A DNA stretch of 34,717 nucleotides, from positions 1-34,717 of IMG/VR virus record IMGVR_UViG_3300046462_000191, one strand, 5' to 3'. The notes under the pieces were generated by a model. It had not been told where the DNA came from. It was given only the letters and a program-made list of their open reading frames with translations, and did no database searches. Position 1 is the first letter of the stretch, and every line of letters begins with the position of its first letter. Below are positions 2 to 34,717 of this stretch, piece by piece. Source of the DNA: a virus. The translations under genes and the position numbers were made by a program.

Positions 2-2002
2 GAGATTGAGTATCGCTCGCAGGCGCAGATTGCCTATACCACGGCCTTTCAGAACGCCGTGCATCAGTCTTACGGCTGGCTGCGGTTCAACACGAAGTAT
101 CAGCCCAAGGGCTTCGTGCAGGACTTGTGGATTGACAGCATCGAGAACCCAGACCTCGTGCTGTCGGACCCTGATGCCTTGCGGCCGTCGTCCAGCGATC
201 AGACCTACCTGTTCTATCTGCAGTCGCGGAGCATCAAGGAGTTTCGCCGGGAGTTCCCCAATGCTCAAGTGACCAACTTCACGCCCGAAGTGGTGAGCCA
301 GGCGCCGGCTTGGATTACCCCGGAGCGCGTCCAGGTGGCGGAATACTGGGTGGTCGAGCCGGTCACGAAGGAACTCGTCCTGCTGCAACTGCCAGACGGT
401 CGGACGCAGGGCTTCTACACCGACGAACTCGAGCAGATGCCGACGAACGGCGCGAAGGTCGTGGACCGCCGGCAGGAGCAAGTCCCTGAAGTCTGTATGT
501 ATCTGACCAACGGGGTCGAGATACTCAAGAAGCCTGGGCAAGAGAAGCGGCAGCGGTGGGCGGGCAAATACATCCCGTTTGTGTCGTGCTTCGGGATGGT
601 GATCTATGTGGATGAGGGGTCGGGCCCGAAGCGCAAGATCCTGAGCATGACGCGCTTAGCGCGGGATCCTTATATGCTCTATTGCTACTACCGGACGTGC
701 CAGGCGGAACTCGTGGGGATGACCCCGAAGATTCCCTACTTCGTGCGGCGAGGGTCGCTCAAACCTGATCAGTTGGCGAACCTTGCGAAGTCACTCCACG
801 AGCCTATTAGCGTGATTGAGGTGGAAGCGTTTATCGACGGCATGCCCGGTCAACCCCCAGAATTTCCCCAACGCAACCCCTACGAGCCATTCATCCAAAA
901 TCTGGAGATTGGCGCGGAGTCGGCGCGGCGGGCGATTCAGGCCGCGATGGGGATCAGTCCGTTGCCGACGCAAGCGCAGCGGCGCAATGACAAGTCCGGC
1001 GTGGCGCTGCAGCAGATTGAGTCCTCGCAGCAGAAGGGGTCGTTCCACTTCATCGACCACTACAACGAGATGCTGCACCAGGGCGCGGTGATTGTCGAAG
1101 ACCTGATCCCGAAGGTCTACGACACGCCCCGCGAGGTCGGGGTGCGGGACGCGAAGGACAACGCCAAGACGGTCAGCATCAACAATCCCCAGATGCAGCG
1201 CAAGGGCGACATGCCGAACGGCGTGGCGGGGGACCATACCGTCACGATCAGCGAAGGTCCGGCGTTTGAGAGCCAGCGGGCGGAAGGGGCCGCCTTTACC
1301 GATACGCTCGTCAGCAACCTGCAGATGATTGCCCAAGTCTCCGGCCCGAAGGCGGCCGGCGCCGTGCTCGGGCTGGCGGTGAAGCTGAAGAATCTGGGCG
1401 AGATTGGCGACGAGATTGCCAAGATTGTGACGCCGCCGGAATATGCGGAGCAGGACGGGCAGGATCAGATTCCGCCGCAGATCAAGGCCGCGCTGCAGCA
1501 GATGGGGCAGGAGAACCAGCAACTCAAGCAGGCGATTGAGTCGAAGGTGGCAGAGAAGCAAGCCGAAGCCCAGGCTAAGGGCCAGATTGACATGCAGAAG
1601 CAGCAACTGGAGGGGCAGCAGAAGCTCCAACAGATGACGCTCGAGCAGCAGGGCAAGGAACGGCTGGCGTGGATTCAGCAGTCCGCGCAGATTGCGATCG
1701 CCGGCGCTAAGATTGACGCCGAAGAGGCGCGGACGTTTGTCGATGCGGTGGAGCAGCGGAGTGCGAAGGCACTGGACCTGCATATGGAGCATGTCGGGCA
1801 TGCTCAAGACGTGATCCACGCCACGGCCCAGATGACGCATGAAAAGGCCCTGAGCGAGCAGGAGCATGAACAGGCCCTGCAAGCGGCGCAGGTCGGGCAC
1901 CAGCAGGCGCTCGAGCAGGGCGCACAGGGGCATCAGCAAGCCTTAGAGCAAGGGCAGCAGGCGGCGGATCTGGCCCCTGAGCCGGCGGAGCCGTCGGCAT
2001 GA
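2..2002 (+). CDS. P22-type portal protein (5' partial)
   Basis: This is the dodecameric portal through which DNA is packaged and ejected. The reading frame is open to the left edge, so the true start lies outside; the GTG at 59 is internal because homologous-looking sequence (EIEYRSQAQIAY) precedes it. P22 gp1-like signatures are a GWLRF segment followed by a WIDSIENP/SDPDA stretch near the start, and a central KSGVALQQIESSQQKGSFHF segment followed by DLIPKVYDTPREV. The last ~190 residues are Gln/Ala/Glu-rich helix, resembling the long C-terminal barrel of P22 portals, and end in short tandem HQQALEQG units. The downstream 57-aa gene overlaps the stop codon by 4 nt. Scaffold and coat genes follow, as in P22-like phages. 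Family assignment is from remembered sequence patterns. Confidence 0.9.
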   Translation, partial: EIEYRSQAQIAYTTAFQNAVHQSYGWLRFNTKYQPKGFVQDLWIDSIENPDLVLSDPDALRPSSSDQTYLFYLQSRSIKEFRREFPNAQVTNFTPEVVSQAPAWITPERVQVAEYWVVEPVTKELVLLQLPDGRTQGFYTDELEQMPTNGAKVVDRRQEQVPEVCMYLTNGVEILKKPGQEKRQRWAGKYIPFVSCFGMVIYVDEGSGPKRKILSMTRLARDPYMLYCYYRTCQAELVGMTPKIPYFVRRGSLKPDQLANLAKSLHEPISVIEVEAFIDGMPGQPPEFPQRNPYEPFIQNLEIGAESARRAIQAAMGISPLPTQAQRRNDKSGVALQQIESSQQKGSFHFIDHYNEMLHQGAVIVEDLIPKVYDTPREVGVRDAKDNAKTVSINNPQMQRKGDMPNGVAGDHTVTISEGPAFESQRAEGAAFTDTLVSNLQMIAQVSGPKAAGAVLGLAVKLKNLGEIGDEIAKIVTPPEYAEQDGQDQIPPQIKAALQQMGQENQQLKQAIESKVAEKQAEAQAKGQIDMQKQQLEGQQKLQQMTLEQQGKERLAWIQQSAQIAIAGAKIDAEEARTFVDAVEQRSAKALDLHMEHVGHAQDVIHATAQMTHEKALSEQEHEQALQAAQVGHQQALEQGAQGHQQALEQGQQAADLAPEPAEPSA

Positions 2003-5115: not shown

Positions 5116-6109
<994 letters not shown>

Positions 6110-8808: not shown

Positions 8809-10667
<1,859 letters not shown>

Positions 10668-10668
<1 letters not shown>

Positions 10669-23344: not shown

Positions 23345-25834
23345 ATGCCTGAAGACCTGAAGGACTTGCAGCGCGGGCTGATTGGCGCCGAGCCGCTGAT
23401 GGTCATTGGGAATGCCGTGGCCGGCGCCGGCCGTGAGGTGCAGGACGCGTGGGATCTGGTGCAGTCGCATCTGACTGGCGGCAAGATGCCCTCGATGCCG
23501 TCCTTCTCGGTGCCGTCGTTCTCCATGCCGGTCTCGGCCCAATCTTCGACCGCGCCGGCTCCGAAGAAGCCATCTAGCGCAGAGCCTTCACCCTCGGATC
23601 CGTCGTGGTTAAAGATTGCCGCAGAGCATGGCGGGCAGCCTGAAGTCAACGTCACGATCAAGAGCAAGCCAGGAGAGCCTGATCCCTCAGATATTGAATG
23701 GCAGCAGATCGCCAAGCAGTTCGGCGGGGCGCCTGAGGATCCGACTGGTGGCGCTGGGCAGCCGGTCCAATACGATACTCCGCTGGACTTTGCGAAGGGC
23801 TTAGGCTCGTCGCTTCTGGGGGCTGTCAATCCGGCGCCCTTAGTCCAGATGGCCGCGCATCCAATTGAGGCCGTGAAGGGCATCGGAGCGGCTCAGGGAG
23901 CCGTCTACGACAAGGCGCGGGCCTCCTTCGACAAGGGCGACTACGGCACGGCGGCGCGGCATTTCGTGGACTTCCTGCTGCCGATAGTCGGGCCGCAACT
24001 CGATCAGATGGCCGATAAGCTCTCCAGTGGTCAGCCGTGGCGCGGGTCGGGGGAAGCGGTTGGCCTCGGGCTGCAACTCTTCGGGCCGGCGGCGCTGGCG
24101 AAGATGGCCGTCAAAGTGCCAGGGGTCGCCAAGAATCCAAATGCGCTCGAAGCCGCGGCGGTGAAGTTCGGGCAGGACCACGGCATTCCGATAGACGCGG
24201 CCACAGCCACAGGTAACAAAGCCGTGCAGGGCGTGCAGTTCTTGGCGGATCGGTCCATTGCCGGCAGCTTGGGTGCGACGAGTCGCGCACAAGAGACGGC
24301 GAAGGCGCTCGAGCGCGTGGGCGGCGAACTCGCGCAGAAGACTGGCGGGAAGGCGTTGACGCCTGAGCAGGGCGGGGCCACGATAGGCGACATCCTGAAG
24401 GCGAAGGCGGCGGCGCATGGCGGGCAGCAGGACGTGGCCTATACCCGCATGCGGGAACTGGCCGCGCAGCCTGAGCATCAGATCGATGTGCCGGTCTCGA
24501 CGCCTCCTGCCTCTCCCTTGCATGGTGAATTACGCCGGATCGTCCACGAACTCGATGCGATGCCGTTCACAAAGCGGCTATTACAAGAGAGCGGCAAAGG
24601 TGGAGACCTAGAACACGTTCCCGGCACGGGCGGTGCCGGCGCGAAGGTCTATCACGACATCGTGCAGATTGCGGGCAGTAAGAAGACTCGTGCGGCCGTG
24701 CAAGGCGATATAGAAGATTATCTCGCTGGCGGCAAAGAAACACCCATCGTGAAGGCGGCGATTGAGGTGGCGAAGCAGCGGGCCAAGGGCAGTTATACCG
24801 TCGGCAAGCCTGAGTTTGGGCCATCGGCTATGGATGTGCCAACGCGGCTTGAGCAGGGTCCGCGATTTGAAGCGATGGGCCTTCCTGCCTTTATTGGAGA
24901 TGCCAAAGAAGCATTGCGCCCACTAGAGCGGGAGATGTCTCGACGGTTGCCACTGACCCAGCAACAGGCGAATCCTGGTCTCCATGCGATTCGGCAGATT
25001 CTGGAAGGTCCAGATTGGGTGCCGCTGGCTGATGCAGACCGGGATCTGAGTGCGCTGAAGACATTAGCGCGTGAACAGGGCGGACTAGCGAAGCGTGCCG
25101 TGGCGGAATATGGCAAGGCCGTCACGAAGGCATCGGAGGCTGGGTCTCCTGAAGTCGCGCAATCGCTGAACGCCGGCCGTGCAGCGACGGTAGCGAAGTA
25201 TAAGACGCTGGATGTGCTCGGGGACGTGCTGAAGACGAATGAAGAGCCGGTGCAAGCCTTCCGGCGACTAACGGCGCCGAAGGATACCAACATCAATCTA
25301 CTGCGGCGGGTGCAGCAACAGGCGCCGGCTGCGATGAAGGATCTGGGGCGGGCCTATCTCGAAGATTTGATGTCGCAGGCCACGGCGGAAGGCAGCTTTG
25401 ATAAGTCGGCGCGACTGAGCGCGGAATGGAACAAGCTCGGGTCGCAGACGAAGCAGGCGCTGTTTCCCGGCATGGTTGATGATTTGGATCGGTTCTTCCT
25501 GTTGGCGAAGCGGCTCAACTTCAATCCGAATCCCAGCGGATCAGGGCATATCGTCTCGCTTGGCGCTCAGGGCGCGTCGTTGGTAGCGAGTCCGGTCTAT
25601 GGCCTGTTATCGCAGTTGGGCGGGGCTGGTCTCTCGGCGCTCTTACACTCGAAAACAGGCGTCAAGCTGCTGACGAACGGTCTGAGCCTGACGGTGGGTA
25701 AAGCTCCTGCGGCAGCGCAAGCGGCGGCGGCAGCGCGGATTGTTGCCACTGCGCGTGAGATGGGTCTGCCGGTAACGCAGGGGGCTCGAGCAGGAGCGCC
25801 AGCGCCAGCAGCAACAGAATCAACAGGCCGATGA
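23345..25834 (+). CDS. Large internal virion / ejection-type protein
   Basis: This 829-aa protein, the largest in the window, starts directly after the previous TAG. Residues ~60-130 contain two related units, SDPSWLKIAAEHGGQPE and SDIEWQQIAKQFGGAPE, of a type repeated in phage internal proteins. A Gly/Ala-rich hydrophobic region (~155-195; LGSSLLGAVNPAPLVQMAAH) and a long helical middle with many Ala/Lys/Glu follow; the C-terminus has a hydrophobic stretch (LGAQGASLVASPVYGLLSQL, ~735-755). Length and position after three ejection-type genes suggest a P22 gp16- or T7 gp16-like role in carrying DNA across the envelope. I saw no transglycosylase catalytic pattern. Confidence 0.6.
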   Translation: MPEDLKDLQRGLIGAEPLMVIGNAVAGAGREVQDAWDLVQSHLTGGKMPSMPSFSVPSFSMPVSAQSSTAPAPKKPSSAEPSPSDPSWLKIAAEHGGQPEVNVTIKSKPGEPDPSDIEWQQIAKQFGGAPEDPTGGAGQPVQYDTPLDFAKGLGSSLLGAVNPAPLVQMAAHPIEAVKGIGAAQGAVYDKARASFDKGDYGTAARHFVDFLLPIVGPQLDQMADKLSSGQPWRGSGEAVGLGLQLFGPAALAKMAVKVPGVAKNPNALEAAAVKFGQDHGIPIDAATATGNKAVQGVQFLADRSIAGSLGATSRAQETAKALERVGGELAQKTGGKALTPEQGGATIGDILKAKAAAHGGQQDVAYTRMRELAAQPEHQIDVPVSTPPASPLHGELRRIVHELDAMPFTKRLLQESGKGGDLEHVPGTGGAGAKVYHDIVQIAGSKKTRAAVQGDIEDYLAGGKETPIVKAAIEVAKQRAKGSYTVGKPEFGPSAMDVPTRLEQGPRFEAMGLPAFIGDAKEALRPLEREMSRRLPLTQQQANPGLHAIRQILEGPDWVPLADADRDLSALKTLAREQGGLAKRAVAEYGKAVTKASEAGSPEVAQSLNAGRAATVAKYKTLDVLGDVLKTNEEPVQAFRRLTAPKDTNINLLRRVQQQAPAAMKDLGRAYLEDLMSQATAEGSFDKSARLSAEWNKLGSQTKQALFPGMVDDLDRFFLLAKRLNFNPNPSGSGHIVSLGAQGASLVASPVYGLLSQLGGAGLSALLHSKTGVKLLTNGLSLTVGKAPAAAQAAAAARIVATAREMGLPVTQGARAGAPAPAATESTGR

Positions 25835-25881
25835 GAAAGACTTGCTCGGCTCGTGCGAGCGACACAGGGAGAGTGTAACCG

Positions 25882-26202
25882 ATGAGTGCCGCAACTTTAT
25901 TCGCTCAGCCTTACATTCAAGTTATAGATAATCGCACCGGATCAGACACGCCCGGCGTGCCGCTGGTCGGCGCCAAGATTTACGTCTACATCACGGGCAC
26001 GACGACGCCCCAGCCGGTCTATCACGACAGCGATTTGATGTCGGCCTGGACGCAGCCCATCGTGACGAATGCCTCGGGGATTACCGATGACCCGGTGTTC
26101 GTGGATACGACGCCTTCGCTCAAGGTGCTGATTACGGATGCCGATGATGTGGATCTCCCCGGCTATCCCATGGATCCCTGGAGTCCGTATGCGCTCGCAT
26201 GA
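25882..26202 (+). CDS. Fibre N-terminal-like domain protein
   Basis: This 106-aa protein starts at ATG 25882, behind GGGAGAG. Its pattern, VPLVGAKIYVYITGTTTPQP then VYHDSDLMSAWTQPIVTNAS, then LKVLITDADDVDLPG, is that of a widespread N-terminal domain of phage tail fibres (a G-A-K-x-Y-x-Y ... G-T-T-T-P motif). Here it stands alone without the following fibre shaft or receptor region, so it may be an adaptor to which another protein binds, or a remnant. It begins a new gene run after 47 bp, the largest non-coding gap among the + strand late genes. Confidence 0.65.
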   Translation: MSAATLFAQPYIQVIDNRTGSDTPGVPLVGAKIYVYITGTTTPQPVYHDSDLMSAWTQPIVTNASGITDDPVFVDTTPSLKVLITDADDVDLPGYPMDPWSPYALA

Positions 26203-26402
26203 TCCCGCAAATTGAATGGACGATTTCCCTCGGCACGATTCTGCAACTGGTCGTGGTGATTACGGGGTTTATCAAGATTTACAACGCGGTCGAGCGGCGG
26301 TTGAGCGGCTTGGAACTGAAGATGGATCAGGTGTGGCAGTGGTTCACGGATCATATGGCGCGGGAGCCGATGGCGCGGACGCGGCGGAATGACCACCGAT
26401 GA
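26199..26402 (+). CDS. Small membrane protein (holin- or XhlA-like)
   Basis: This 67-aa protein overlaps the previous gene as ATGA. Residues ~9-28 (ISLGTILQLVVVITGFIKIY) are a transmembrane segment. Residues ~29-55 (NAVERRLSGLELKMDQVWQW) are an amphipathic, coiled-coil-like helix, and the C-terminus is basic. One TM plus coiled helix is seen in XhlA-type proteins, which assist lysis. It directly precedes a peptidase gene, which favours a lysis role. Orientation in the membrane is not resolved. Confidence 0.55.
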   Translation: MIPQIEWTISLGTILQLVVVITGFIKIYNAVERRLSGLELKMDQVWQWFTDHMAREPMARTRRNDHR

Positions 26403-26785
26403 TTACGCGGTTTAAGGCGGGCGTGACGATTGAGCCGACGGCGGTGACAGCGCGACTGCTTGGGGCGGTGGATCGGGTGGCGATGAATAGCTCCTTCGAC
26501 ATCACGGTGACGAGCGGGTCGGACAGCCATCCGTTGCATGATGTCCATACCCGCGGGCTGGCGCTGGATCTGCGGTCGCATGATCTGGATGATGTCGAGA
26601 AGGCCGACATGATGCGGGCGATTCTCTGGGAGCTCGCAGACGAAGCGCCGGAAGACGTGAGTGCCAGGAACAGTGCATGGCTGGCGCTCGAGACGGATGA
26701 ATGGTTCATTCAGTTGGAACATCACGGCGATCTGACCGAACACGTGCATCTGCAGCGGCGTCAAGGGGCGCTGCCCTTTGATTAA
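26399..26785 (+). CDS. M15-type peptidoglycan peptidase (endolysin candidate)
   Basis: This 128-aa protein overlaps the previous gene as ATGA. It follows the compact phage M15/VanY-like peptidase pattern: a TSGSDSHPLHDVHTRGLALDLR stretch in which H50 and D57 are zinc-ligand positions, then W102 and a terminal EHVHLQ with H115 and H117, one of which supplies the third ligand. Such enzymes cut D-Ala or L-Ala/D-Glu cross-links in peptidoglycan. No signal peptide is present, so export would depend on a holin, and small membrane proteins flank it. It is the only clear cell-wall peptidase in the window. Confidence 0.75.
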   Translation: MITRFKAGVTIEPTAVTARLLGAVDRVAMNSSFDITVTSGSDSHPLHDVHTRGLALDLRSHDLDDVEKADMMRAILWELADEAPEDVSARNSAWLALETDEWFIQLEHHGDLTEHVHLQRRQGALPFD

Positions 26786-26797
26786 CGGGTGGTATCT

Positions 26798-27082
26798 ATG
26801 ATGGGCTACGAAGAAGTAATTCTGCAGGACCAACTCCGGGTGGCGCTCGACGCCAACGGCAACCCGATTGCCGGGAAGGTGCAAGTGCATTACCCGCGGG
26901 GATCGGCCACGTTGCTCGCGTGCTTCTTCACGGAGACGCCCGTGCGACTGGCAGCAGTGGCGCCGGATCAGGTCAGCGGGTTTACCAACTTCACCGTGAA
27001 GAATGGGAACCTGCTGATGACGCCGGACCGGGACAACTGCCCCGGCTCGATCATCCTCGGCGCCGGTCTCACGCAGCCATGA
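26798..27082 (+). CDS. Hypothetical protein
   Basis: This 94-aa protein is read from ATG 26798, which has GGGTGG about 6 nt upstream; an in-frame GTG at 26789 and an ATG at 26801 are alternatives. It is beta-rich (ILQDQLRVALDANGNPIAGK ... VQVHYPRGSATLLACFFTET ... FTNFTVKNGNLLMT) with no signal peptide or catalytic motif. It could be a virion or cell-surface protein. The next gene overlaps its stop as ATGA. Confidence 0.55.
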   Translation: MMGYEEVILQDQLRVALDANGNPIAGKVQVHYPRGSATLLACFFTETPVRLAAVAPDQVSGFTNFTVKNGNLLMTPDRDNCPGSIILGAGLTQP

Positions 27083-27186
27083 CCGCTTGTGCTGCCTGTC
27101 ACCGGTGGGCGTGTGTCCAATTGGAAGGCAGCCTGGTCTACTGCCTCGCTTGCTGGTTCTACCATCGGCGGTTCCATGTCGCTTAG
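27079..27186 (+). CDS. Mini zinc-ribbon protein
   Basis: This 35-aa protein starts at ATG 27079 as ATGA with the previous stop, and overlaps the next gene by 11 nt. It carries two CxxC knuckles, C4-A-A-C7 and C22-L-A-C25, with further Cys/His around them (C12, H8), enough to bind zinc. The C-terminus is aromatic and basic (WFYHRRFHVA). Very short proteins of this sort occur in phages as putative regulators or inhibitors of host enzymes. Its presence among envelope-active genes is unexplained. Confidence 0.5.
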   Translation: MTACAACHRWACVQLEGSLVYCLACWFYHRRFHVA

Positions 27187-28312
27187 ACGGACGCTGCTGC
27201 TGTCGGGGGGCGCGAGCGGCGGCGCCGGTCAGACGGGCCGCATCCACATCGACGGGCGCATGTTCCGCGATGAGCATGGCGCCGCATGGTTGTGGCGGGG
27301 CTGCACGGCCTTCACGTTGTATCTGCTGTGGCTGACGGGCGGGGCCTCGGCGGTGGATGCCGTGCTGGCGGATTGGTTTACCGCGGCGGGCTCGAGTCCG
27401 TTTACGGTCGTGCGGGTGCTCGGGATGGTCAACTCATTCGCCCATCTCTGGCCGCAAGAACATGCCGACTACTATGACCAGTTGCAGCCTTTTGTTCGAT
27501 ATCTATTCTCCCGGTGGGCGGTCAGAATTGAGTTTGTCATCTTCGCAGACAGCGGGGACATCCTCGGTAACGGGGACATCGATCCCCACGCTCAACGTGT
27601 GGCCGGCCTTATTGCTGATGAACCGAACGTCTTTATCGAAGTCGCCAACGAGCCCTCACAGCATACCAACCTGAACGGCGGGGATCAGAAGGCGTATGAG
27701 ATTTATCTCAGCCTCACGGCGCCGGGCCGAATGATTGCCACTGGGGCCTATAGCTGGGAGCAGCCGGGCGATTACCTGACGGACCATACCCCGCGTGAGG
27801 ATTGGGTCCGCAAGGCCAACGACCTCAAGGACGGCTGCGAGGCGACGAACCGGCCGACGGTGGGGGATGAGCCGATCGGGGCCGCGGAGGTCGCCATTCC
27901 CGGGAAGCGGGATAACGTGCCGTCGAAGTTCGCGCAGTATGCGGCGATTGCGGCCATGAACGGCTCGGGCTCGACGTTCCACAGTGACAATGGGATCCTG
28001 TGCCAGCCGTTCCAGCCGGTGCAGCGCGACTGTGCGGCGGCGTTCTTTGCAGCGGCGGCATGGCCTCCCCCTGAGACGCAACTGGCGCCCTATAACCGGG
28101 GCGGGAGTGTGCCTGGCTGCCACTGGCCCTTCGGCCCCTCGATCTGTGAGCATGACGATAGTGTCGAGGTCCGCACGTTTGCGAAGATTCTCGAGCCGCT
28201 CGCGTGGGTGTGTCAGGTCGAGACGCAGCGCACGGCGCCGACACCCTGCCCAGGATGGGCTGTGGACGCACCAGGACCGTCTATAGGCTTAACCGTATTT
28301 AAGAGAGTCTAA
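27176..28312 (+). CDS. Clan-A-like glycoside hydrolase (putative depolymerase)
   Basis: This 378-aa protein is read from ATG 27176; the frame opens upstream but the ATG gives a compact N-terminus. The sequence suggests a TIM barrel: HIDGRMFRDEHGAAWLWRGC near the start, FTVVRVLGMVNSFAHLWPQE, EFVIFADSGD, VFIEVANEPSQH with the acid/base candidate E159 in the N-E-P motif of clan GH-A, then PTVGDEPIG (E232) as possible nucleophile. Phage hydrolases of this kind degrade capsule or other surface glycans. No signal peptide is obvious, so it could be a virion-borne depolymerase. Substrate is unknown. Confidence 0.65.
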   Translation: MSLRRTLLLSGGASGGAGQTGRIHIDGRMFRDEHGAAWLWRGCTAFTLYLLWLTGGASAVDAVLADWFTAAGSSPFTVVRVLGMVNSFAHLWPQEHADYYDQLQPFVRYLFSRWAVRIEFVIFADSGDILGNGDIDPHAQRVAGLIADEPNVFIEVANEPSQHTNLNGGDQKAYEIYLSLTAPGRMIATGAYSWEQPGDYLTDHTPREDWVRKANDLKDGCEATNRPTVGDEPIGAAEVAIPGKRDNVPSKFAQYAAIAAMNGSGSTFHSDNGILCQPFQPVQRDCAAAFFAAAAWPPPETQLAPYNRGGSVPGCHWPFGPSICEHDDSVEVRTFAKILEPLAWVCQVETQRTAPTPCPGWAVDAPGPSIGLTVFKRV

Positions 28313-29425
28313 ATGCCCATCAAAATCCACGGCTATCCTTACGACCCGACTGTGACGGAATACGCGGACCCGTCGAAGTGGCCCACGATTTCCGCCCAAG
28401 CCCATTGGCGCCCGGGGAACAGCAACCCCGATCCCACGACGGTGCCCCAGATGCACTCGCCCTCCCTGGCGCATACGCATCTGGACATCACGGCCCCGGT
28501 GTATGGCGAGATGACAGAGAGCTTCGTGGTGCCGTTCAGCAATACGCTCTTCCAGGTCGAAGGGGCCATCACGGATTACGTGCCGCTGCGAGGGCCGCTG
28601 ATCAGCCATGTCGTGTTTGACAAGCCGCTGCCGCTGGTTGGAGATCCCAACGGCGTCGTGACCATCACGGGTCACTTCACGGTGGACTTCAGCCTCTCGT
28701 GGAATGACGGGGTGTCTGGGCATACCGTGCCCAAAAAGGGCTGGTTTGCGGTCCAGGCCATTACACGGACGTATTTCAAGAATGGCGACTTTACCGATGA
28801 CATCCTGATCCTGCCGTTCTTTTCGATGGTGGACCCGATGGCCCCGGAGGAGTTTCTCGCACAGGGCGGGCCGTATATCGGGACGAACAATAATCCCAAC
28901 TCGCTGCTGGATATGCCCGAAGGCAAACTCGGTGGGACGGCCACGCAATACGACTACATCATCCCGATCCTCTCGCCCCTGACGCAGGCGGTGCCGGGGA
29001 CGACACCGAAGCTGTTCGGCTACATCGTGGATCCCGATCTGCCGGACGGCGTGGGGATGACGCGCTACGACATGGATCTGCACCATGACAGCGAAGGCAT
29101 TCTGATCAACGAAGGCACGGCGCCAGCCAACAAGACCCTGATCCTGCCCTCGCCGTTCGATCCCGCGATTCTCGGGCCAGGGACGCATAAGGTGGCGGCG
29201 ATCTGGCAACAGGACAGCAACGGCGGGAGACCTGGCATTCAGGCCAACGAGCAGGCCACGTCGCTGCTGGTCGTGACGGTGAATGTCGGGAGCGCCCCAC
29301 CGGACCCGACGTGGACCACGCTGGACGGCACGTTTCAACAGCAGGTGAGTCCGAATCCGAATCTCTATCGGTTCGCGCCGGCCGCGACGCCTGATGTGTG
29401 GACGACATTCGTGAAAACAACATAG
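28313..29425 (+). CDS. Large protein of unknown function beside the glycosidase
   Basis: This 370-aa protein starts at ATG 28313 directly after the previous TAA, with AAGAGAG as ribosome site. It is rich in Pro, Gly, Asp and Thr and predicted mostly beta (HTHLDITAPVYGEMTESFVV; VTITGHFTVDFSLSWNDG; FGYIVDPDLPDGVGMTRYDM). It has several His and Asp clusters (SPSLAHTHLD; DMDLHHDSEG) that could bind metal or glycan. I recognise no family. Its position after a glycosidase and before small membrane proteins suggests an envelope or receptor role, which is inference. Confidence 0.6.
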   Translation: MPIKIHGYPYDPTVTEYADPSKWPTISAQAHWRPGNSNPDPTTVPQMHSPSLAHTHLDITAPVYGEMTESFVVPFSNTLFQVEGAITDYVPLRGPLISHVVFDKPLPLVGDPNGVVTITGHFTVDFSLSWNDGVSGHTVPKKGWFAVQAITRTYFKNGDFTDDILILPFFSMVDPMAPEEFLAQGGPYIGTNNNPNSLLDMPEGKLGGTATQYDYIIPILSPLTQAVPGTTPKLFGYIVDPDLPDGVGMTRYDMDLHHDSEGILINEGTAPANKTLILPSPFDPAILGPGTHKVAAIWQQDSNGGRPGIQANEQATSLLVVTVNVGSAPPDPTWTTLDGTFQQQVSPNPNLYRFAPAATPDVWTTFVKTT

Positions 29426-29433
29426 GAGCCAGC

Positions 29434-29640
29434 ATGCCCGTCATTACCTTGCTGATTTACATCGTGCTCGTGGCGCTGCTCGGGTTTCTCGCGGTGTGGG
29501 TGCTGGGGAAGCTGGCGCCGGGGCATCCGGCCATGATTGACAACGTGATCTGGGTCATTGTGGTGCTGGTGATTGTGCTGGAAGTCTTGCAAGCCTTCGG
29601 GCTGCTGGGAGCCGGGCCTGTCGTGCCGCGCCTGCGCTAG
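29434..29640 (+). CDS. Two-TM holin-like protein
   Basis: This 68-aa protein starts at ATG 29434 with TAGGAG upstream. It has two hydrophobic segments, residues ~4-24 (ITLLIYIVLVALLGFLAVWV) and ~31-50 (IWVIVVLVIVLEVLQAFGLL), with a short polar turn (GKLAPGHPAMID) and a basic C-terminal tail. Size and topology fit a class II holin. It is directly followed by another two-TM gene. Alternatively it is a generic membrane protein. Confidence 0.55.
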   Translation: MPVITLLIYIVLVALLGFLAVWVLGKLAPGHPAMIDNVIWVIVVLVIVLEVLQAFGLLGAGPVVPRLR

Positions 29641-29891
29641 TGGCGCTCAGCCAAAGCTCCCAGACCACGGCGGGCTGGGTCGTCTTCATCGCCGGGATTG
29701 GCATGATGGCGGCCATGATGGCCGTGGATATTGCCCAACTGATGAACTGGAATGAGGCGATGACGCCCGCCTTCGTGGGGACGTGCATCGGCCACTTTGG
29801 CGCGGTCATTACGGCCTTTGTGGGTGGCAAACTGATCCCTGAGGGCCGCGATCCGGGCACCCATACACGACAAGAGGACCCCAAACCATGA
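29640..29891 (+). CDS. Two-TM membrane protein, holin or antiholin candidate
   Basis: This 83-aa protein uses GTG 29640, sharing one base with the previous stop. Two hydrophobic segments lie at ~11-33 (AGWVVFIAGIGMMAAMMAVD) and ~43-64 (AFVGTCIGHFGAVITAFVGG), followed by a charged tail (PEGRDPGTHTRQEDPKP). Together with 29434 it forms a tandem pair of small two-TM proteins, reminiscent of holin/antiholin pairs. Which is which cannot be told. Confidence 0.55.
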   Translation: MALSQSSQTTAGWVVFIAGIGMMAAMMAVDIAQLMNWNEAMTPAFVGTCIGHFGAVITAFVGGKLIPEGRDPGTHTRQEDPKP

Positions 29892-30088
29892 AGAAGCACA
29901 ATCCGGCCGACTTGACCGGTCGTAATCTGCGGGCGCTCAAGAAACGCGAACTGATCGCCAAAGACATGCTGATCAATCGGGCGGGGTCGCTCGACCACCG
30001 GCTGACCAATCTCAGCGATCTGGTGGATACCCTGATCCGTCGGCTGACGGCCTTAGAGGTGATTGTGACCGGCAAGGGGGCCAAATGA
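29888..30088 (+). CDS. Small basic coiled-coil protein
   Basis: This 66-aa protein overlaps the previous gene as ATGA and the next as ATGA. It is Lys/Arg/Leu-rich (LTGRNLRALKKRELIAKDML) with a heptad helix at the C-terminus (LSDLVDTLIRRLTALEVIV). It has no membrane segment or signal peptide. It sits inside the putative lysis region and could bind a membrane partner. Function unknown. Confidence 0.5.
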   Translation: MKKHNPADLTGRNLRALKKRELIAKDMLINRAGSLDHRLTNLSDLVDTLIRRLTALEVIVTGKGAK

Positions 30089-30450
30089 AGCGATTACTTG
30101 CGCTCATCGTCGCCGGTCTCTTCGTCGTGATGGCGGGAACCATCCAACAAGCCTGTGCCGGCCATACTCCGCCCATCCTGACGCCCACCGCTGCCGCGGC
30201 GCTCACGAACGGCCTCGGGGCGCTGTCCACCATCCTCCGGACTCAGAACGCCTCTCCTGGCATCCTCGCAGCGATTAGCGATGCCCAGGTGGCGATTGCC
30301 CAAGATGTGACGGGGCACTCGTGGGGGCAGATTACGCGGACGCTGCTGCAGGAGCTGTATAGCCAACTGCCCGTGGACGTGCTTAATCGGCCGGCGGTGT
30401 GGGCGGCGTTTGCAGCGGTGGAGATTGTGCTCGCCACGATTGGGGCGTAG
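30085..30450 (+). CDS. Secreted or periplasmic protein with signal peptide
   Basis: This 121-aa protein starts at ATG 30085 as ATGA with the previous stop. Residues 1-~24 (MKRLLALIVAGLFVVMAGTI) form a classical signal sequence with A-C-A at about 23-25, so cleavage there by signal peptidase I is likely; a lipobox reading is poor because Q-Q precedes the Cys. The mature part is Ala/Thr-rich and helical (LTNGLGALSTILRTQNASPG; ITRTLLQELYSQLPVDVL). Its end overlaps a minus-strand gene by 68 nt, so late and minus transcripts converge here. A role in envelope disruption is inferred from position. Confidence 0.6.
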   Translation: MKRLLALIVAGLFVVMAGTIQQACAGHTPPILTPTAAAALTNGLGALSTILRTQNASPGILAAISDAQVAIAQDVTGHSWGQITRTLLQELYSQLPVDVLNRPAVWAAFAAVEIVLATIGA

Positions 30451-30673
30451 GGAGGCCCAAGAGGGCGCGGGCCGCGACGACTTCGGCGCCGTGCTCGTTG
30501 TCGAGATACCCGCAGTCCGCGCACTGGTTGGCGAGGTCCAGGTGATAGGCGAGCAGGTGCCGCAGGGCGGCTTCGAGGAGTTGCCGGTCCCGCACGGAGG
30601 CATAGAGCGCGTCATTGAACAGGCGGGCCTCGGCGCGCAGGGTCTCGAGTTCGGCGCGTTCGTCGTCAGCCAC
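30383..30673 (-). CDS. Small zinc-knuckle protein on the minus strand
   Basis: This 96-aa protein starts at GTG 30673, overlapping the TAG of the upstream minus gene by one base. The first 45 residues are helical and charged (ERAELETLRAEARLFNDALY), then CADCGYLDNEHGAEVVAARA provides a C-x-x-C with nearby His that could bind zinc. The C-terminus is Pro-rich and overlaps the + strand signal-peptide gene. Transcription away from the early region and coupling to the 54-aa gene suggest a two-gene regulatory unit. Function unknown. Confidence 0.5.
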   Translation of the reverse strand: MADDERAELETLRAEARLFNDALYASVRDRQLLEAALRHLLAYHLDLANQCADCGYLDNEHGAEVVAARALLGLPTPQSWRAQSPPLQTPPTPPAD

Positions 30674-30837
30674 TAGGCGGCTTCAGCCTTTCGCTTGCGG
30701 GCGACACCGGATGCCTTCCCGGCATCTCGCGCAATCTCCTTGCGGCGCTCTGGGGTGAGGGCATCCCGGCGGGCATGCCCACCTTTCCGGCCCACTTCCT
30801 CAAACACGGCCTTCCGCATCGCAGCAGTCACTTTCAT
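30673..30837 (-). CDS. Small basic GRKGG-type protein on the minus strand
   Basis: This 54-aa protein is read from ATG 30837, since the frame upstream crosses the divergent control region. The sequence VFEEVGRKGGHARRDALTPE then RRKEIARDAGKASGVARKRK fits a widespread class of small basic phage and plasmid proteins with a G-x-K-G-G core, where L-T-P-E-R-R-K-E-I-A follows. These are thought to bind DNA but their role is mostly unassigned. Divergent orientation from the early promoter suggests a regulatory role, which is inference. Confidence 0.55.
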   Translation of the reverse strand: MKVTAAMRKAVFEEVGRKGGHARRDALTPERRKEIARDAGKASGVARKRKAEAA

Positions 30838-30844
30838 AGCCTTC

Positions 30845-30873
30845 AGCCTACCCGAAAACGAACTTGCAATCAA
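30845..30873 (-). promoter_or_regulatory. Weak candidate minus-strand promoter
   Basis: Read on the minus strand, TTGATT (30873-30868) and TAGGCT (30850-30845) are separated by 17 bp. The -35 matches consensus at four of six bases and the -10 at three. Only 7 nt lie between the -10 and ATG 30837, so this promoter would give a nearly leaderless message. The match is weak and could be chance. Confidence 0.25.
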
Positions 30874-30875
30874 GT
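30862..30875. promoter_or_regulatory. Candidate operator: inverted repeat upstream of the early promoter
   Basis: ACTTG-CAAT-CAAGT is a perfect 5-4-5 inverted repeat that ends just before the -35 box at 30877. The half site recurs as ACTTGC at 30894-30899, inside the promoter spacer and 32 bp from the first copy (about three helical turns), and CAAG recurs at 30881-30884. This arrangement suggests a binding site for a repressor of the divergent early genes. Confidence 0.45.
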
Positions 30876-30876
30876 G

Positions 30877-30905
30877 TTGACAAGCCGTTTTGGACTTGCT
30901 AGTAT
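30877..30905 (+). promoter_or_regulatory. Strong sigma-70-type early promoter
   Basis: TTGACA (30877-30882), a 17-bp spacer and TAGTAT (30900-30905) match the sigma-70 consensus, the -35 perfectly. TGC directly before the -10 supplies an extended -10 (TGn). Transcription should start about 30911-30913, at the ATG of the first early gene. It faces away from the minus-strand pair. Confidence 0.8.
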
Positions 30906-30911
30906 GTCGGT

Positions 30912-31124
30912 ATGGCAAACACACTGACGGCGGCGACCTCCGATGACGTGCTCCGCATTGCGGTGGGGCTGGACGACCTGAAGCGCCGGCTGCACGCGGA
31001 AGCCAAGGCGGGCAACTACGAGGGCGTCATGGCGATCTACGCGGCGATGCGGGGGATTGAGTTGGACGTGATGAGCCTGACGACGCTGGCGGGGAAGCTG
31101 GCGACGGATCTGGTGATGCGATGA
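30912..31124 (+). CDS. First early gene, small helical protein (probably leaderless)
   Basis: This 70-aa protein begins at ATG 30912. The promoter -10 ends at 30905 and its start point should fall on or next to this ATG, with no ribosome site possible, so the message is likely leaderless. The protein is helical and acidic/basic mixed (SDDVLRIAVGLDDLKRRLHA; YEGVMAIYAAMRGIELDVMS). No motif is recognised. As the first gene of the early operon it may act soon after infection, for example as a regulator or host-takeover factor. Confidence 0.65.
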   Translation: MANTLTAATSDDVLRIAVGLDDLKRRLHAEAKAGNYEGVMAIYAAMRGIELDVMSLTTLAGKLATDLVMR

Positions 31125-31360
31125 CGTGGCACATTGGCACCACGACGCACAACGACGGAGCCATCGCGGTGCTGGCTGACGAGGGGCGCGTGGCCCGCGT
31201 GGACAAGCACGAAGACCGTGACGCACGCGCTGCCCTGATTGCTGCGGCGCCTGACCTGTTGGCGTGCTGCAAGCGGGCGCTCCGTGAGTCTGCGCGAGTG
31301 CGTCCTGATTTTATGGAGCAGTTACTGGTCGCTATCGCCAGAGCGGAGGGCAAGTTATGA
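31121..31360 (+). CDS. Small phage early protein (IAAAPDLL type)
   Basis: This 79-aa protein overlaps the first early gene as ATGA. The N-terminal half reads THNDGAIAVLADEGRVARVD; the middle ARAALIAAAPDLLACCKRAL and the ending LLVAIARAEGKL match a pattern frequent in short phage early proteins, in which a D-A-R-L-I-A-A-A-P-E-L-L core is typical. Function is unknown. It lies in a chain of ATGA-coupled early genes. Confidence 0.65.
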   Translation: MTWHIGTTTHNDGAIAVLADEGRVARVDKHEDRDARAALIAAAPDLLACCKRALRESARVRPDFMEQLLVAIARAEGKL

Positions 31361-31491
31361 CCGCGCAGTTCTGGCTCTACTTCTCGCTGGCGCTCTTGCT
31401 GCTGGCGTTTGTGTGGGGTGTGGTGGACGTGCTGGGCACTGGATTGGTGCGGGCCTATCGGCGGTATCAGGTGCGGAAGGAGTGCAAATGA
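31357..31491 (+). CDS. Small single-TM protein
   Basis: This 44-aa protein starts at ATG 31357 as ATGA with the previous stop and ends as ATGA with the next. Residues ~5-28 (FWLYFSLALLLLAFVWGVVD) are a transmembrane segment and the C-terminus (RAYRRYQVRKECK) is basic, predicting N-out/C-in by the positive-inside rule. Early membrane miniproteins often act in superinfection or host control, though nothing specific can be said here. Confidence 0.55.
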   Translation: MTAQFWLYFSLALLLLAFVWGVVDVLGTGLVRAYRRYQVRKECK

Positions 31492-31691
31492 GAGACGAAC
31501 ATCGGACCTATGGCGGGGCGCCTGCGATGCCCAGCGGCGATGGCAAGCCTCTCAAGGCGCTGCTCTGCCGGTGCGCGGATTGCGACTATACCGGCTCACT
31601 CCTCGGCTCGATTGTGCATTACCAGACGACGAGCCATCGGCTCATCTATCGGGGCTACGTGCAAGATTTCTCACATCTCAAACACGTCTAA
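31488..31691 (+). CDS. Small zinc-finger protein
   Basis: This 67-aa protein starts at ATG 31488 as ATGA with the previous stop. C29-A-D-C32 followed by H44 and H50 forms a C2H2-like zinc site (CADCDYTGSLLGSIVHYQTT then SH), with C27 near by. The rest is polar with an aromatic C-terminus. It resembles small phage zinc fingers of unknown target. It is followed by a 36-nt gap before the ERF gene. Confidence 0.55.
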   Translation: MRDEHRTYGGAPAMPSGDGKPLKALLCRCADCDYTGSLLGSIVHYQTTSHRLIYRGYVQDFSHLKHV

Positions 31692-31727
31692 CGCGCCGGC
31701 CGCAGAGCGGTTGGCAAGGGAGCAGAC

Positions 31728-32363
31728 ATGACGACTTCAGAGCAGATCGGGGAACTGGCGGCGGCACTGGCGAAGGCGCAAGCGGAGATGGAAGGCGCTG
31801 CTAAAAACTCCACGAATCCCCACTTTCGGAATGCGTATCCCGATTTAGCCTCCGTGCGGGATGCCTGTGTCGGGCCGTTGAGCAAGAACGGGATTGCCGT
31901 GGTGCAGTCGCCGTCTATCTCGCTGACGGCCGAATTCGGCGCCGGGGTGACGGTGGAGACACGGCTGATTCACGGCTCTGGGCAGTGGATGGCCGGGACG
32001 TTATCGTGCCAGATGAAGGACGCCAGCCCGCAGTCGGTCGGGTCTGCAATCACCTACTTGCGGAGGTATGCGCTGCTCTCGTTCGCTGGGATTGCCCCGA
32101 CGGACGACGACGGGGAAGCCGCGCACGGTCGCCCGAAGGTCGCGCAGCCTGTGGCGAAGGCCAGCGCCCCGTCTGGTTATGACGAGTGGCTGAAGAAACT
32201 GGAAGGCGTGGCCGATGGCGGGTCCGACAAGCTCAAGGCGGCGTGGCAGAGCTCGGCGCCGGATTACCGCAAGCACTTGACGGAGACGGATAACGGCCGA
32301 TGGGAAGCGCTGAAGGCGCAGTCTGCGATGGCTGATGTGAAGCTGAAGCTGGTGGCGAAGTGA
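31728..32363 (+). CDS. erf: ERF-family single-strand annealing protein
   Basis: This 211-aa protein would anneal complementary single DNA strands during phage recombination. It starts at ATG 31728 behind AAGGGAGCAG. The diagnostic ERF core is at 101-131, PQSVGSAITYLRRYALLSFA then GIAPTDDDGEAA. The N-terminal TNPHFRNAYPDLASVRDACV is also typical. The C-terminal ~75 residues are a variable helical tail. The exonuclease gene next door (32360) overlaps it by 4 nt, forming the usual annealase-exonuclease pair. Confidence 0.9.
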   Translation: MTTSEQIGELAAALAKAQAEMEGAAKNSTNPHFRNAYPDLASVRDACVGPLSKNGIAVVQSPSISLTAEFGAGVTVETRLIHGSGQWMAGTLSCQMKDASPQSVGSAITYLRRYALLSFAGIAPTDDDGEAAHGRPKVAQPVAKASAPSGYDEWLKKLEGVADGGSDKLKAAWQSSAPDYRKHLTETDNGRWEALKAQSAMADVKLKLVAK

Positions 32364-33004
32364 TCGCCGCGCATCCGTTCACGGTCTGCGAGGCGGAGCA
32401 GCGGTCGCCTGAGTGGTTCCAGGCCCGCCTCGGGCGCCTGACCGGCTCACGGTCGGCGGACATGCTGGCGACGATCAAGACCGGAGAGGCCGCAGCCCGC
32501 CGTGACCTTCGGACCCAGTTGGTCGTGGAGCGGCTGACCCAGAGCGTGCAAGAGGACGGATTCATCAATGCCGCGATGCAATGGGGGATAGACCAAGAGC
32601 CGGCCGCCTTTGCCGCCTACGAGGCGTTAACGGGCCTCATGGCGCAGCGGACAGGCTTCATCAGCCATGCATCCCTGATGGTCGGGTGCTCGCTGGACGG
32701 GCATGTGGGCGATTTCGAGGGCATCACCGAGTTCAAGGCGCCGAAGTCGGCCACGCATCTCAAGTATCTGCGGGGGGCGATTCTGCCCATCGACTACCTG
32801 CCGCAAGTGCGGCATAACCTCTGGGTAACGGGGGCGAAGTGGGCGGATTTCATGTCCTATGATCCGCGGTTCCCGGCGCACCTCCAGACGTTTCTGGTGC
32901 GGGTGGAGGCGTCCACGTTGGACATGGCGGCATATCAGCGGGCGGTGGAAGCCTTTTTAGCTGAGGTGGATGCCGAAGTCGAAGCGGTGCGAGGGTTACG
33001 GTGA
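32360..33004 (+). CDS. YqaJ-type viral recombinase/exonuclease
   Basis: This 214-aa protein uses GTG 32360, overlapping the ERF stop as GTGA. It is a PD-(D/E)XK nuclease of the YqaJ/lambda exonuclease type: SPEWFQARLGRLTGS (16-30) opens the fold, GIDQEPAAFAAYEALTG carries E80, and SLDGHVGD with EFKAPK supplies D113, E124 and K126. It would resect double-strand ends 5' to 3' and feed the ERF protein. Length is close to lambda exonuclease (226 aa). Confidence 0.9.
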   Translation: MIAAHPFTVCEAEQRSPEWFQARLGRLTGSRSADMLATIKTGEAAARRDLRTQLVVERLTQSVQEDGFINAAMQWGIDQEPAAFAAYEALTGLMAQRTGFISHASLMVGCSLDGHVGDFEGITEFKAPKSATHLKYLRGAILPIDYLPQVRHNLWVTGAKWADFMSYDPRFPAHLQTFLVRVEASTLDMAAYQRAVEAFLAEVDAEVEAVRGLR

Positions 33005-33417
33005 TTCCGGTGTTTCATGGCGTGGTGGAGAAGGGCGTGTTGGTGCTCGAGCCGCGGGAGCGGTATCAACGCTCTGGCTGGCTCAAGTCACTGGAAGGGC
33101 AGCCGGTGGACGTGACGGTGAAGCGTCACTACAACAAGCGCAGCGACAAGCAGAACCGGCTGTGGTGGGGCATCATCGTGCCGCTGATTGCGCAAGAGAC
33201 CGGCTATGACAAGCACGAACATGAAGCGGTGCATTACGCCTTGGTCGCTAAGTGCTTCGGGGTGATTCAGGATGAACGGCTCGGGGAACTGCCCAAGGTC
33301 CGCAGCTCGCAGATGACGACGGCACAGTTTACGGAACTAATCGAATGGGCCGTGCGGTGGGCCGCTACCGAGTTTGGGATGAACATCCCGTTACCGGGTG
33401 ACATGGAGGCTGCGTGA
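33001..33417 (+). CDS. NinB (Orf)-like recombination protein
   Basis: This 138-aa protein uses GTG 33001 and overlaps the exonuclease gene by 4 nt. The core VTVKRHYNKRSDKQNRLWW (R47-S48, Q51-N52, W55) fits the RS-xx-QN-x-x-W motif of NinB/Orf, a mediator that helps exchange single-strand binding protein for recombinase. The following VPLIAQETGYDKHEHEAVHY and SSQMTTAQFTELIEWAVRWA also match NinB layout. It joins ERF and YqaJ as a recombination set. Confidence 0.75.
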   Translation: MIPVFHGVVEKGVLVLEPRERYQRSGWLKSLEGQPVDVTVKRHYNKRSDKQNRLWWGIIVPLIAQETGYDKHEHEAVHYALVAKCFGVIQDERLGELPKVRSSQMTTAQFTELIEWAVRWAATEFGMNIPLPGDMEAA

Positions 33418-33746
33418 AATTCCCGAAGCCTTCCCCCACGCGGGACCGCATTGACCAGAAGCGGGATCAGGACAAGAAGCTGCGAGACGCCATTGTGGCG
33501 GTCTGGGCGCGGGATGGCTCGACGTGTCGGGCGTGTGGCCGGCGGGTGCGGCGGAGCAATAGCGGGGTGGCGCAAGCGGGGCATGTGCATCATGTGGTCA
33601 AACGGTCACAATCGAAGAGCCTGCGGAGTAACCCGGATAACCTGCTGCTCTTGTGCTCAACCTGCCACGCAGATGTCCATACGTATGACCTCGTGATTGC
33701 CGGCACGGTGGGGGCGTTTACCTTTAAGAAAGCGAGGCGGCAGTGA
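33414..33746 (+). CDS. HNH endonuclease
   Basis: This 110-aa protein starts at GTG 33414, overlapping the previous stop as GTGA. The HNH fold is clear: C38-R-A-C41 zinc knuckle, H57-V-H59-H60, N73/N76, then C81-S-T-C84-H85 and H89. It lacks NUMOD repeats and shows no compositional shift, so it is probably a resident phage nuclease for recombination or packaging rather than a homing element. It differs from the larger HNH at 14660. Confidence 0.8.
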   Translation: MKFPKPSPTRDRIDQKRDQDKKLRDAIVAVWARDGSTCRACGRRVRRSNSGVAQAGHVHHVVKRSQSKSLRSNPDNLLLLCSTCHADVHTYDLVIAGTVGAFTFKKARRQ

Positions 33747-33940
33747 CTGTCAGATATTCCGTGACCTTTGAGTTTGACCTGCGGGCACCGTTAACGCACA
33801 CAGGCACGGTTGTAGCCGCTAGTGCCGCCACATGCTTCGCTCGGGCCGTGCGGGAGGCCCAGAAGGCCGCGAAGCCCGTGGCGTGGACCTCGGTGGTCTG
33901 CGTGCTTCTAGATCGGGCAGATACGCGAGCGGCGGCATGA
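33743..33940 (+). CDS. Small early protein
   Basis: This 65-aa protein uses GTG 33743, overlapping the HNH stop as GTGA. The sequence (RYSVTFEFDLRAPLTHTGTV then VAASAATCFARAVREAQKAA) suggests a short alpha/beta fold with an Ala-rich helix. Proteins of this kind are frequent in phage early operons. The function is unknown. Confidence 0.5.
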   Translation: MTVRYSVTFEFDLRAPLTHTGTVVAASAATCFARAVREAQKAAKPVAWTSVVCVLLDRADTRAAA

Positions 33941-34209
33941 TGGCCTTCCTGAGCCGCCTGTTCCCCTCCCGTTCGTCCTACGTGTCTGAGGCGTGGCTGG
34001 ATGCCTTAGCGAACCGGGGGAGCACGGAGGGGTGGACGGAGGCGCCGCGGATCGACTGGCAGGCCAACACGTATACCGGGCCTAGAACGCGCCAGGATGC
34101 CCCACAGGAGCCGTTGACGATGGTTTCGACCGCGAGGCCGGATGAATGTCTAGTCTTCACTGATGGGGCGGCTTACAAGCGGGAGGGGGGAGAGTGGACA
34201 CGGCTATGA
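33937..34209 (+). CDS. Hypothetical early protein
   Basis: This 90-aa protein starts at ATG 33937 as ATGA with the previous stop. The upstream part of the frame lies inside that gene. The sequence (MMAFLSRLFPSRSSYVSEAW; DECLVFTDGAAYKREGGEWT) has no membrane segment, although the first residues are hydrophobic-amphipathic. The ending resembles the typical TDGAxYKRxGGxW tail of phage proteins of unknown role. Its stop overlaps the next gene's coding region. Confidence 0.5.
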   Translation: MMAFLSRLFPSRSSYVSEAWLDALANRGSTEGWTEAPRIDWQANTYTGPRTRQDAPQEPLTMVSTARPDECLVFTDGAAYKREGGEWTRL

Positions 34210-34460
34210 CTCAGACTGAGTTGTCCTTCACCCCGAAGTCCCTGAATCCCACAAGCTTGACGGGGCGGGTGTATGCCCTCCTGGACGCGCACCGAGGGCA
34301 GTGGGTGGACGGGCGCGAAATCATGCAGGTTGGCGGGTATGCGGGGTGGTCGGCGCGGGTGCGGGATCTGCGGAAGCTGGGGTATGTCGTGGAGCAGCGG
34401 GATTACCGGGTGGAGCGGGACGGGCGGAAGTTCACGGTCAGCGAATATCGGTTGCTGTAG
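34194..34460 (+). CDS. Winged-helix DNA-binding-like protein
   Basis: This 88-aa protein is read from GTG 34194, because GGGAGGGGGG ends 3 nt before it; the ATG at 34206 lies too far from this site. The sequence SLTGRVYALLDAHRGQWVDG then REIMQVGGYAGWSARVRDLRKLGY followed by a beta wing (VEQRDYRVERDGRKFTVSEY) fits a winged helix-turn-helix in which SARVRDLRKLG is the recognition helix. It may regulate the early or middle genes. Binding sites are unknown. Confidence 0.65.
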   Translation: MDTAMTQTELSFTPKSLNPTSLTGRVYALLDAHRGQWVDGREIMQVGGYAGWSARVRDLRKLGYVVEQRDYRVERDGRKFTVSEYRLL

Positions 34461-34470
34461 GGGGGGATAC

Positions 34471-34717
34471 GTGGCGATTACGAAGAAGATTACACACACC
34501 TGCGATGTCTGCGGGAAACAGTCGGTCAAAGTCACCGATACGTCCTATGGCGGCGAGGACACGCCCGACAAGTGGTTCAATGCCTTCTGCTATGAGCATA
34601 AAGACAGTGGCCCCTATAGCCTGAGTGGCATTCAACAGGGGACGGTGTGCAGCGTGAAGTGCCTTACCACCTGGGCGAAGTCGGTGCCGGCGCAATTCAA
34701 GAAAGAACGGCTCGCAC
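34471..34717 (+). CDS. Zinc-ribbon protein (3' partial)
   Basis: The GTG at 34471 has AGGGGGGG about 4 nt upstream and opens a frame that reaches the right edge after 82 codons. It encodes a CDVCG knuckle (C11, C14), C40 with H43, and C60/C64, giving at least two potential zinc sites. It resembles small phage or host-derived zinc-ribbon proteins. Because the 3' end is missing, family cannot be set. Confidence 0.55.
   Translation, partial: MAITKKITHTCDVCGKQSVKVTDTSYGGEDTPDKWFNAFCYEHKDSGPYSLSGIQQGTVCSVKCLTTWAKSVPAQFKKERLA

Follow-up and report, generated by a model that had tools for sequence, protein, structure and literature searches.

A sigma-70-type early promoter held in register with the first start codon of a P22-like phage predicts a leaderless message and recurs in relatives with exchanged first genes

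Several regulatory genes of phages and prophages are launched without a leader. In the immB region of the Yersinia phage PY54, the cI and cro messages start with AUG as determined by RACE, according to the accessible part of the report (PMC4488713), and the -10 box of PY54 cro, CATAAT, stands 6 nt before the ATG. Lambda cI, which is preceded by TGn-TAGATT-N6-ATG, is named as a leaderless message in the available portions of PMC8630535 and PMC9031893, and the independence of its translation from initiation factors rests on the latter, a review. In the paaR2/ydaS region of a cryptic prophage of E. coli O157:H7, a leaderless regulator was established by RACE and N-terminal sequencing, as far as the excerpted text of PMC8630535 goes. 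Outside phages, the accessible part of PMC3160421 defines a class of TANNNT-led leaderless bacterial genes by a -10 core approximately 12 bp upstream of the start codon.

Here we describe a 34,717-nt stretch of viral DNA (IMG/VR record IMGVR_UViG_3300046462_000191), hereafter the window, which is a fragment of a P22-like podovirus whose portal and coat proteins match P22 families. Like PY54, it carries a putative regulator gene divergent from a first early gene; the leaderless starts were demonstrated by RACE in PY54 and are predicted from sequence in the window. The PY54 regulators are CI and Cro, whereas the KGG-type protein encoded by the divergent gene of the window belongs to no recognised DNA-binding family, and among the window and its relatives the first gene is exchangeable. 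The window promoter shares its register and extended -10 with lambda cI, but the leaderless arm of PRM-cI is the repressor, while that of the window would be the first early gene. The paaR2/ydaS control region of 97 bp is likewise divergent; its leaderless arm, in the text available, is the regulator of a toxin-antitoxin locus, unlike the early gene considered here. The TANNNT-led class, as described in the accessible text, consists of cellular genes, whereas the cassette of the window belongs to a phage early region and its first gene varies among relatives. In comparison with the lambdoid cI/cro switch, the divergent promoter pair is present, but recognised repressor and Cro DNA-binding domains are absent by Pfam and PHROG.

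The early promoter lies on the plus strand and consists of a -35 hexamer TTGACA (30877..30882), a 17-nt spacer (AGCCGTTTTGGACTTGC) whose final three bases, TGC, extend the -10, the extended -10 TGC-TAGTAT (30897..30905; hexamer 30900-30905) and a 6-nt discriminator GTCGGT (30906..30911), an arrangement that would put +1 on the A of ATG 30912 or on a neighbouring base. With a score of 10/12, it is the sole plus-strand sigma-70-like match in 20000-34717. The two hexamers alone are no proof, since the scan of both strands of this 14.7 kb found 2 sites against a shuffle mean of 3.3, which is the chance level. When the start codon was included, TTGACA-16..18-TANNNT-4..9-ATG occurred once in the window and in 0/100 shuffles, and the promoter that the preliminary description had read 6 nt before ATG 30912 (TTGACA-17-TAGTAT, TG-extended) was thus confirmed. 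A TANNNT 6-8 nt before ATG or GTG, together with a -35 of at least 4/6, was found at only three places on both strands of the whole window: 30912 (plus), 30837 (minus, the divergent gene) and 15125 (minus). Applied to known genes as a control, the register test picks out lambda cI and PY54 cro, both with d = 6, and returns no match for lambda cro, whose message has a leader; it misses PY54 cI, which is leaderless by RACE and has only AAAAGT at 5 nt.

The 70-aa first early gene (30912..31124, plus strand, 70 codons), predicted to be leaderless, begins with AUG followed by CA-rich codons 2-4 (GCAAACACA). Four codons upstream of ATG 30912, the TAG within the -10 hexamer closes the reading frame. 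In relatives, codons 6-14 differ from those of the window mostly by synonymous changes. Over codons 5-21, L001, L003, L004 and L007 together show 10 synonymous and 0 other changes (TCC to AGT in L007 being an example), whereas L005, L006, L009 and L010 show 1, 2, 1 and 4 amino-acid changes, all within codons 5-10, along with 0, 4, 2 and 3 synonymous ones. This pattern implies that translation begins before approximately codon 6, and the only usual start codon there is ATG 30912; with the in-frame stop upstream and the mostly synonymous changes downstream, this start codon is secure. The 70-aa protein has no Pfam or PHROG match and is predicted by AlphaFold2 to form a helical hairpin (mean pLDDT 78; residues 1-5 below 50), a shape with too many structural matches to be telling.

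The rest of the early operon (31121..33746, plus strand) has Shine-Dalgarno-like sites and encodes a 79-aa ORF that overlaps the 70-aa gene by ATGA, a 44-aa ORF that looks membrane-bound by eye, an Erf annealing protein, a YqaJ exonuclease, NinB and HNH. The best Shine-Dalgarno duplex before 30912 is -3.0 kcal, weaker than those of the early genes behind it (-4.1 to -10.0). Given that 9/36 other starts in the window are at -3.0 kcal or weaker (the starts are unverified hand picks, and one, 31489, is off by one base), the weak site is not distinctive by itself; nevertheless, no good ribosome site precedes 30912 that would speak for a leadered message.

The first genes of relatives extend this picture. 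A scan of viral contigs with the 70-aa protein gave 11 loci (L001-L011), 10 of them with upstream DNA and L011 cut off, and a second scan with an alignment of the protein gave 10 loci, all on contigs found before. In all 11 heads (the window and L001-L010), the first ATG follows 6-7 nt after the end of a -10-like hexamer, which reads TANNNT in 10/11. The exception and weakest case is L001, with TTGACA-18-AACGAT after TG, a poor -10 assigned by eye. Merging of near-identical heads reduced the 11 to 7 distinct promoters, six of which have TTGACA as the -35 and one, L009, TTGACT. Spacer lengths (16-18) and -10 sequences vary among the heads, while the distance from the -10 to the ATG hardly varies.

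The gene behind this register changes from phage to phage. The 70-aa gene is first in L001, L002, L004, L007 and L008; the DNA ahead of it is quite different in L001 and in L007/L008. In L003, L005, L006, L009 and L010 it is second: its start overlaps the preceding stop (TAATG; GTGA in L009), no promoter adjoins it, and another small gene is first, with its ATG 6-7 nt after the -10. The five first proteins (70, 72, 76, 58 and 68 aa) are mutually unrelated by blastp. The leaderless transcription put forward in the preliminary description is therefore well supported by comparison, since the register is kept across diverged promoters and unrelated first genes (least clearly in L001); it is a sound prediction, better founded than it could be from a single sequence, and a prediction still. 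The interest lies less in one gene than in the constant promoter-start register while the first gene changes, and what appears to be new, as a variant of known leaderless starting, is that promoter and start codon form a conserved cassette while the first genes behind it are exchanged.

The first codons show a further common trait within the clade. ACAC in codons 2-4 is present in 5/5 first genes that were found without use of that motif (window, L003, L005, L006 and L009). The background frequency is 8/356, counted over the ATG starts of six-frame ORFs (60 aa or longer) from the window and five clade loci; it includes the first-gene heads and many non-genes. The internal copy of the 70-aa gene in L003, which is in second place, also keeps the CA-rich start. 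The part of the review PMC9031893 that was available relates that translation of leaderless mRNAs is raised by CA repeats after the start codon. The idea that a CA-rich start marks leaderless genes in general was rejected: in a set of viral promoters not chosen by the CA motif, the A+C fraction of codons 2-5 was 0.58 in the leaderless as well as in the leadered group (p 0.48). The trait holds for the window clade and not for leaderless viral genes in general. The first 40 nt of the window gene are not clearly less structured than the background, 17% of background windows being as weakly structured or weaker, and of the 7 starts compared, those of L006 and L009 alone are conspicuously low.

The divergent gene (30673..30837, minus strand) encodes a 54-aa small basic KGG-type protein and is likewise predicted to be leaderless. 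Its promoter reads TTGATT-17-TAGGCT-7-ATG, with the -35 at 30868..30873, 3 bp from the early -35, and the -10 at 30845..30850, 7 nt before ATG 30837; the start codons at 30837 and 30912 are 75 bp apart. By sequence match, two divergent promoters thus occupy one short region, and neither arm appears to have a leader, a situation established by RACE for cI and cro of PY54. In L003, L005, L006 and L010, the small gene upstream of the early promoter is of the KGG/GGRP type, is read in the same direction as the early operon and stands behind TTGTAA-17-TACAAT-6-ATG; L007 has such a gene in the same place and orientation, with its ATG 8 nt after the -10, and in L009 the -10 and the start of the KGG-type gene are 9 nt apart. 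The divergent gene of L001 has a GTG start 6 nt after TGC-TAGAGT, with a poor -35.

The spacer in front of the KGG-type gene resembles the early spacer of the same phage in L003 (regulator ACCCAAGGGCTTCGGGT, early ACCCAAAGGCTTGGGTT), L006, L007 (regulator ACCGATTCGATTGGGTT, early (A)ACCGAAACGCTTGGGTT) and L010, and least in L005. The position of the gene and this spacer similarity suggest that the small KGG-type protein is a candidate controller of both promoters. The 54-aa protein has only weak Pfam and PHROG matches, and neither it nor the 70-aa protein matches a Pfam or PHROG DNA-binding family. A possible, weak operator is the inverted repeat ACTTG-CAAT-CAAGT (30862..30875), noticed by eye beside both -35 boxes, near which a further ACTTGC copy lies at 30894; inverted repeats in the window promoter are not above shuffles, 35/100 of which were as good.

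The spacing was also surveyed in viral promoters at large. The sample comprised at least 168 distinct TTGACA-17-TATAAT promoters, taken from the first 120 viral stretches in which such a promoter is followed by an ATG after 3-33 nt. Entries identical over the promoter and the next 40 nt were counted once, and those lying less than 160-200 nt from a locus end were left out. Among the 168 promoters listed, ORFs of at least 40 codons start at 6 nt in 14 cases (12 protein clusters) and at 7 nt in 10 (9 clusters); 12 starts are spread over the twelve positions 9-20, and a broad leadered group follows at 23-35 nt. A Shine-Dalgarno sequence accompanies 2/29 of the listed starts at 5-8 nt versus 56/83 at 20-40 nt. 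A similar two-mode shape of 5' leaders is reported for Lactococcus cremoris in the accessible part of PMC10986495.

A scan for the CA motif at 6-7 nt gave 125 listed matches, 111 of which begin frames of 40 codons or more, falling into 80 protein clusters; at 13-14 nt, which served as the control spacing, the figures were 7/19 and 4 clusters. The 6-7 nt scan covers the first 120 stretches and the control 19 matches in all, so that the ratio is a lower bound. Some of the stretches (L096, L146, L163 and L168) belong to the window clade itself, and uniform N-termini in this set carry no meaning because it was chosen on the CA motif. The other 215 promoters in these 120 CA-cassette stretches have 63 starts at 6 nt (54 clusters) and 9 at 7 nt (9 clusters). 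Leaderless spacing is thus a distinct class among the sampled viral promoters, and PY54 cro is a published case; the remark in the preliminary description that a leaderless start is unusual for a first early gene therefore lacks support and should be dropped. Among the titles searched, which were mostly outside subscription journals, no survey of leaderless promoters in phages was seen, and we do not claim that none is in print.

More distant Erf/YqaJ loci keep the register in part. The promoter scan covered 21/21 of these loci and the start-register scan 13/21, some loci being likely the same phage twice. The register was found in only 4/21, namely L031, L046, L049 and L048 (8 nt, CACAAT), and in L031, L048 and L049 it precedes genes that look HTH-like and Cro-type by eye and by mutual blastp. 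Strong promoters with a distant ATG occur in L045 (20 nt) and L050 (26 nt); L052 has a perfect promoter with the ATG at 9 nt, and L054 has no ATG within the 45 nt examined. A TTG ORF in L045 and a GTG ORF in L027, both at 7 nt, were left out of the register count.

Cassettes of this kind, some of them in pairs, were also encountered in remoter relatives. In L121 (Erf, NinB), register promoters stand before Erf (L121:1241) and behind NinB (L121:2992); in L106 (Erf fragment, YqaJ, NinB), they stand at 1616 in front and 3904 behind, on the reverse complement of the locus. L117 has one register promoter and, elsewhere, two genes that resemble genes of the window. The promoters of L121 and L117 and that at L106:3904 come from the scan selected for CA starts, while that at L106:1616 was not so selected. 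The L106 cassette is repeated in L082, and L184 has its own; L082 and L184 match few or none of the window proteins. In L106 and L121, two related phages, launch points in the leaderless register flank the Erf/YqaJ/NinB block on either side. Around the -35 of the second cassette of L121 (L121:2938-2978) lies a perfect 12-bp inverted repeat, CCGATAGCGTTT/AAACGCTATCGG (0/100 shuffles). Three CA-type leaderless cassettes occur within 1 kb of one viral contig (L140:1349-2201).

We consider it probable, at roughly 0.8, that a sigma-70-type early promoter is fused in register to the start codon and that the first small protein is made from a leaderless 5' end. The early mRNA would begin with AUG or one base ahead of it, and the first small protein would be translated leaderless, while Erf, YqaJ and NinB would be translated from the same transcript through Shine-Dalgarno sites or stop/start overlap. 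The promoter, the start codon and the next few CA-rich codons would form a conserved launch cassette, behind which unrelated small genes stand in related phages, a gene in second place starting by overlap coupling. The KGG-type gene would be launched similarly from a back-to-back or tandem promoter, and it probably encodes a regulator acting via the promoter-spacer sequences. The promoter and its register, the lack of a strong ribosome site in a leader, the conservation, the exchange of first genes and the similar spacers of the tandem relatives are read from sequence, whereas the position of +1, leaderless translation and the role of the regulator are inferred. Any benefit early in infection, such as the independence from initiation factors that had been suggested, would be presumptive.

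The conserved spacing might instead reflect shared ancestry of one promoter block, the register being inherited without functional constraint. The prevalence of TTGACA among the distinct heads (6/7), a spacer sequence partly common to L003, L006 and L010, and the discriminator plus ATGGCAAACACAC common to the window and L007 are in line with such descent. However, the promoters of the window, L005 and L009 are very different and yet all stand at 6-7 nt, and -10 sequence and spacer length (16-18) vary where the distance to the ATG hardly does. The sharp peak at the same place on unrelated viral contigs (12 listed clusters at 6 nt and 9 at 7 nt) and the partial recurrence of the register in further promoters (L031, L046, L049, L106 and L121) also argue against common descent as the whole explanation, which we regard as unlikely. 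Less likely still is a true transcription start farther upstream, giving a leadered message with a weak ribosome site before 30912. Read-through is conceivable in L003, L005, L006, L007 and L010, where a small same-strand gene lies just upstream, but the upstream gene of the window is divergent, the scan of 20000-34717 found no other plus-strand promoter-like site, and the Shine-Dalgarno duplex reaches -3.0 kcal at best. That a promoter merely happens to match near a start codon agrees with the lack of excess over shuffles in the promoter scan alone; the absence of promoter plus ATG from all 100 shuffles and the retention of the register over 7 distinct heads make such a coincidence very improbable.

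Beyond the leaderless launch of the window gene, we propose more tentatively, and with somewhat less than even confidence, a plug-in leaderless cassette that would combine a control site in the spacer, a start in fixed register and CA-rich codons, with unrelated small genes swapped behind it and second genes coupled by overlap, and with leaderless launching as a major class of phage promoters. If leaderless launching is common for phage early promoters, gene finding based on Shine-Dalgarno sequences may misplace or miss first early genes, and the promoter-start register would offer a simple way to find them in metagenomes. First early genes in well-studied phages often encode host-takeover or counter-defence proteins, and a single cassette followed by interchangeable, unrelated small genes would point to a locus where such proteins may be sought.

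As for the wider setting, no named phage matched 30600-32400 by blastn, and the portal protein matches 38 phage records, all below 60% identity. Bacterial and archaeal genomes scanned with an alignment of the 121-aa protein of the clade contained no relative, and those scanned with the Erf alignment gave 12 distant loci of 31-48% identity in several phyla. Collagen-like GPTG repeats occur in presumed tail or fibre genes of the window (5116-5370, 8809-10668 and 18925-19794), and the stretch 10638-14663, inside the structural region, carries ORFs that by eye resemble glycosyltransferase, deacetylase and methyltransferase genes.
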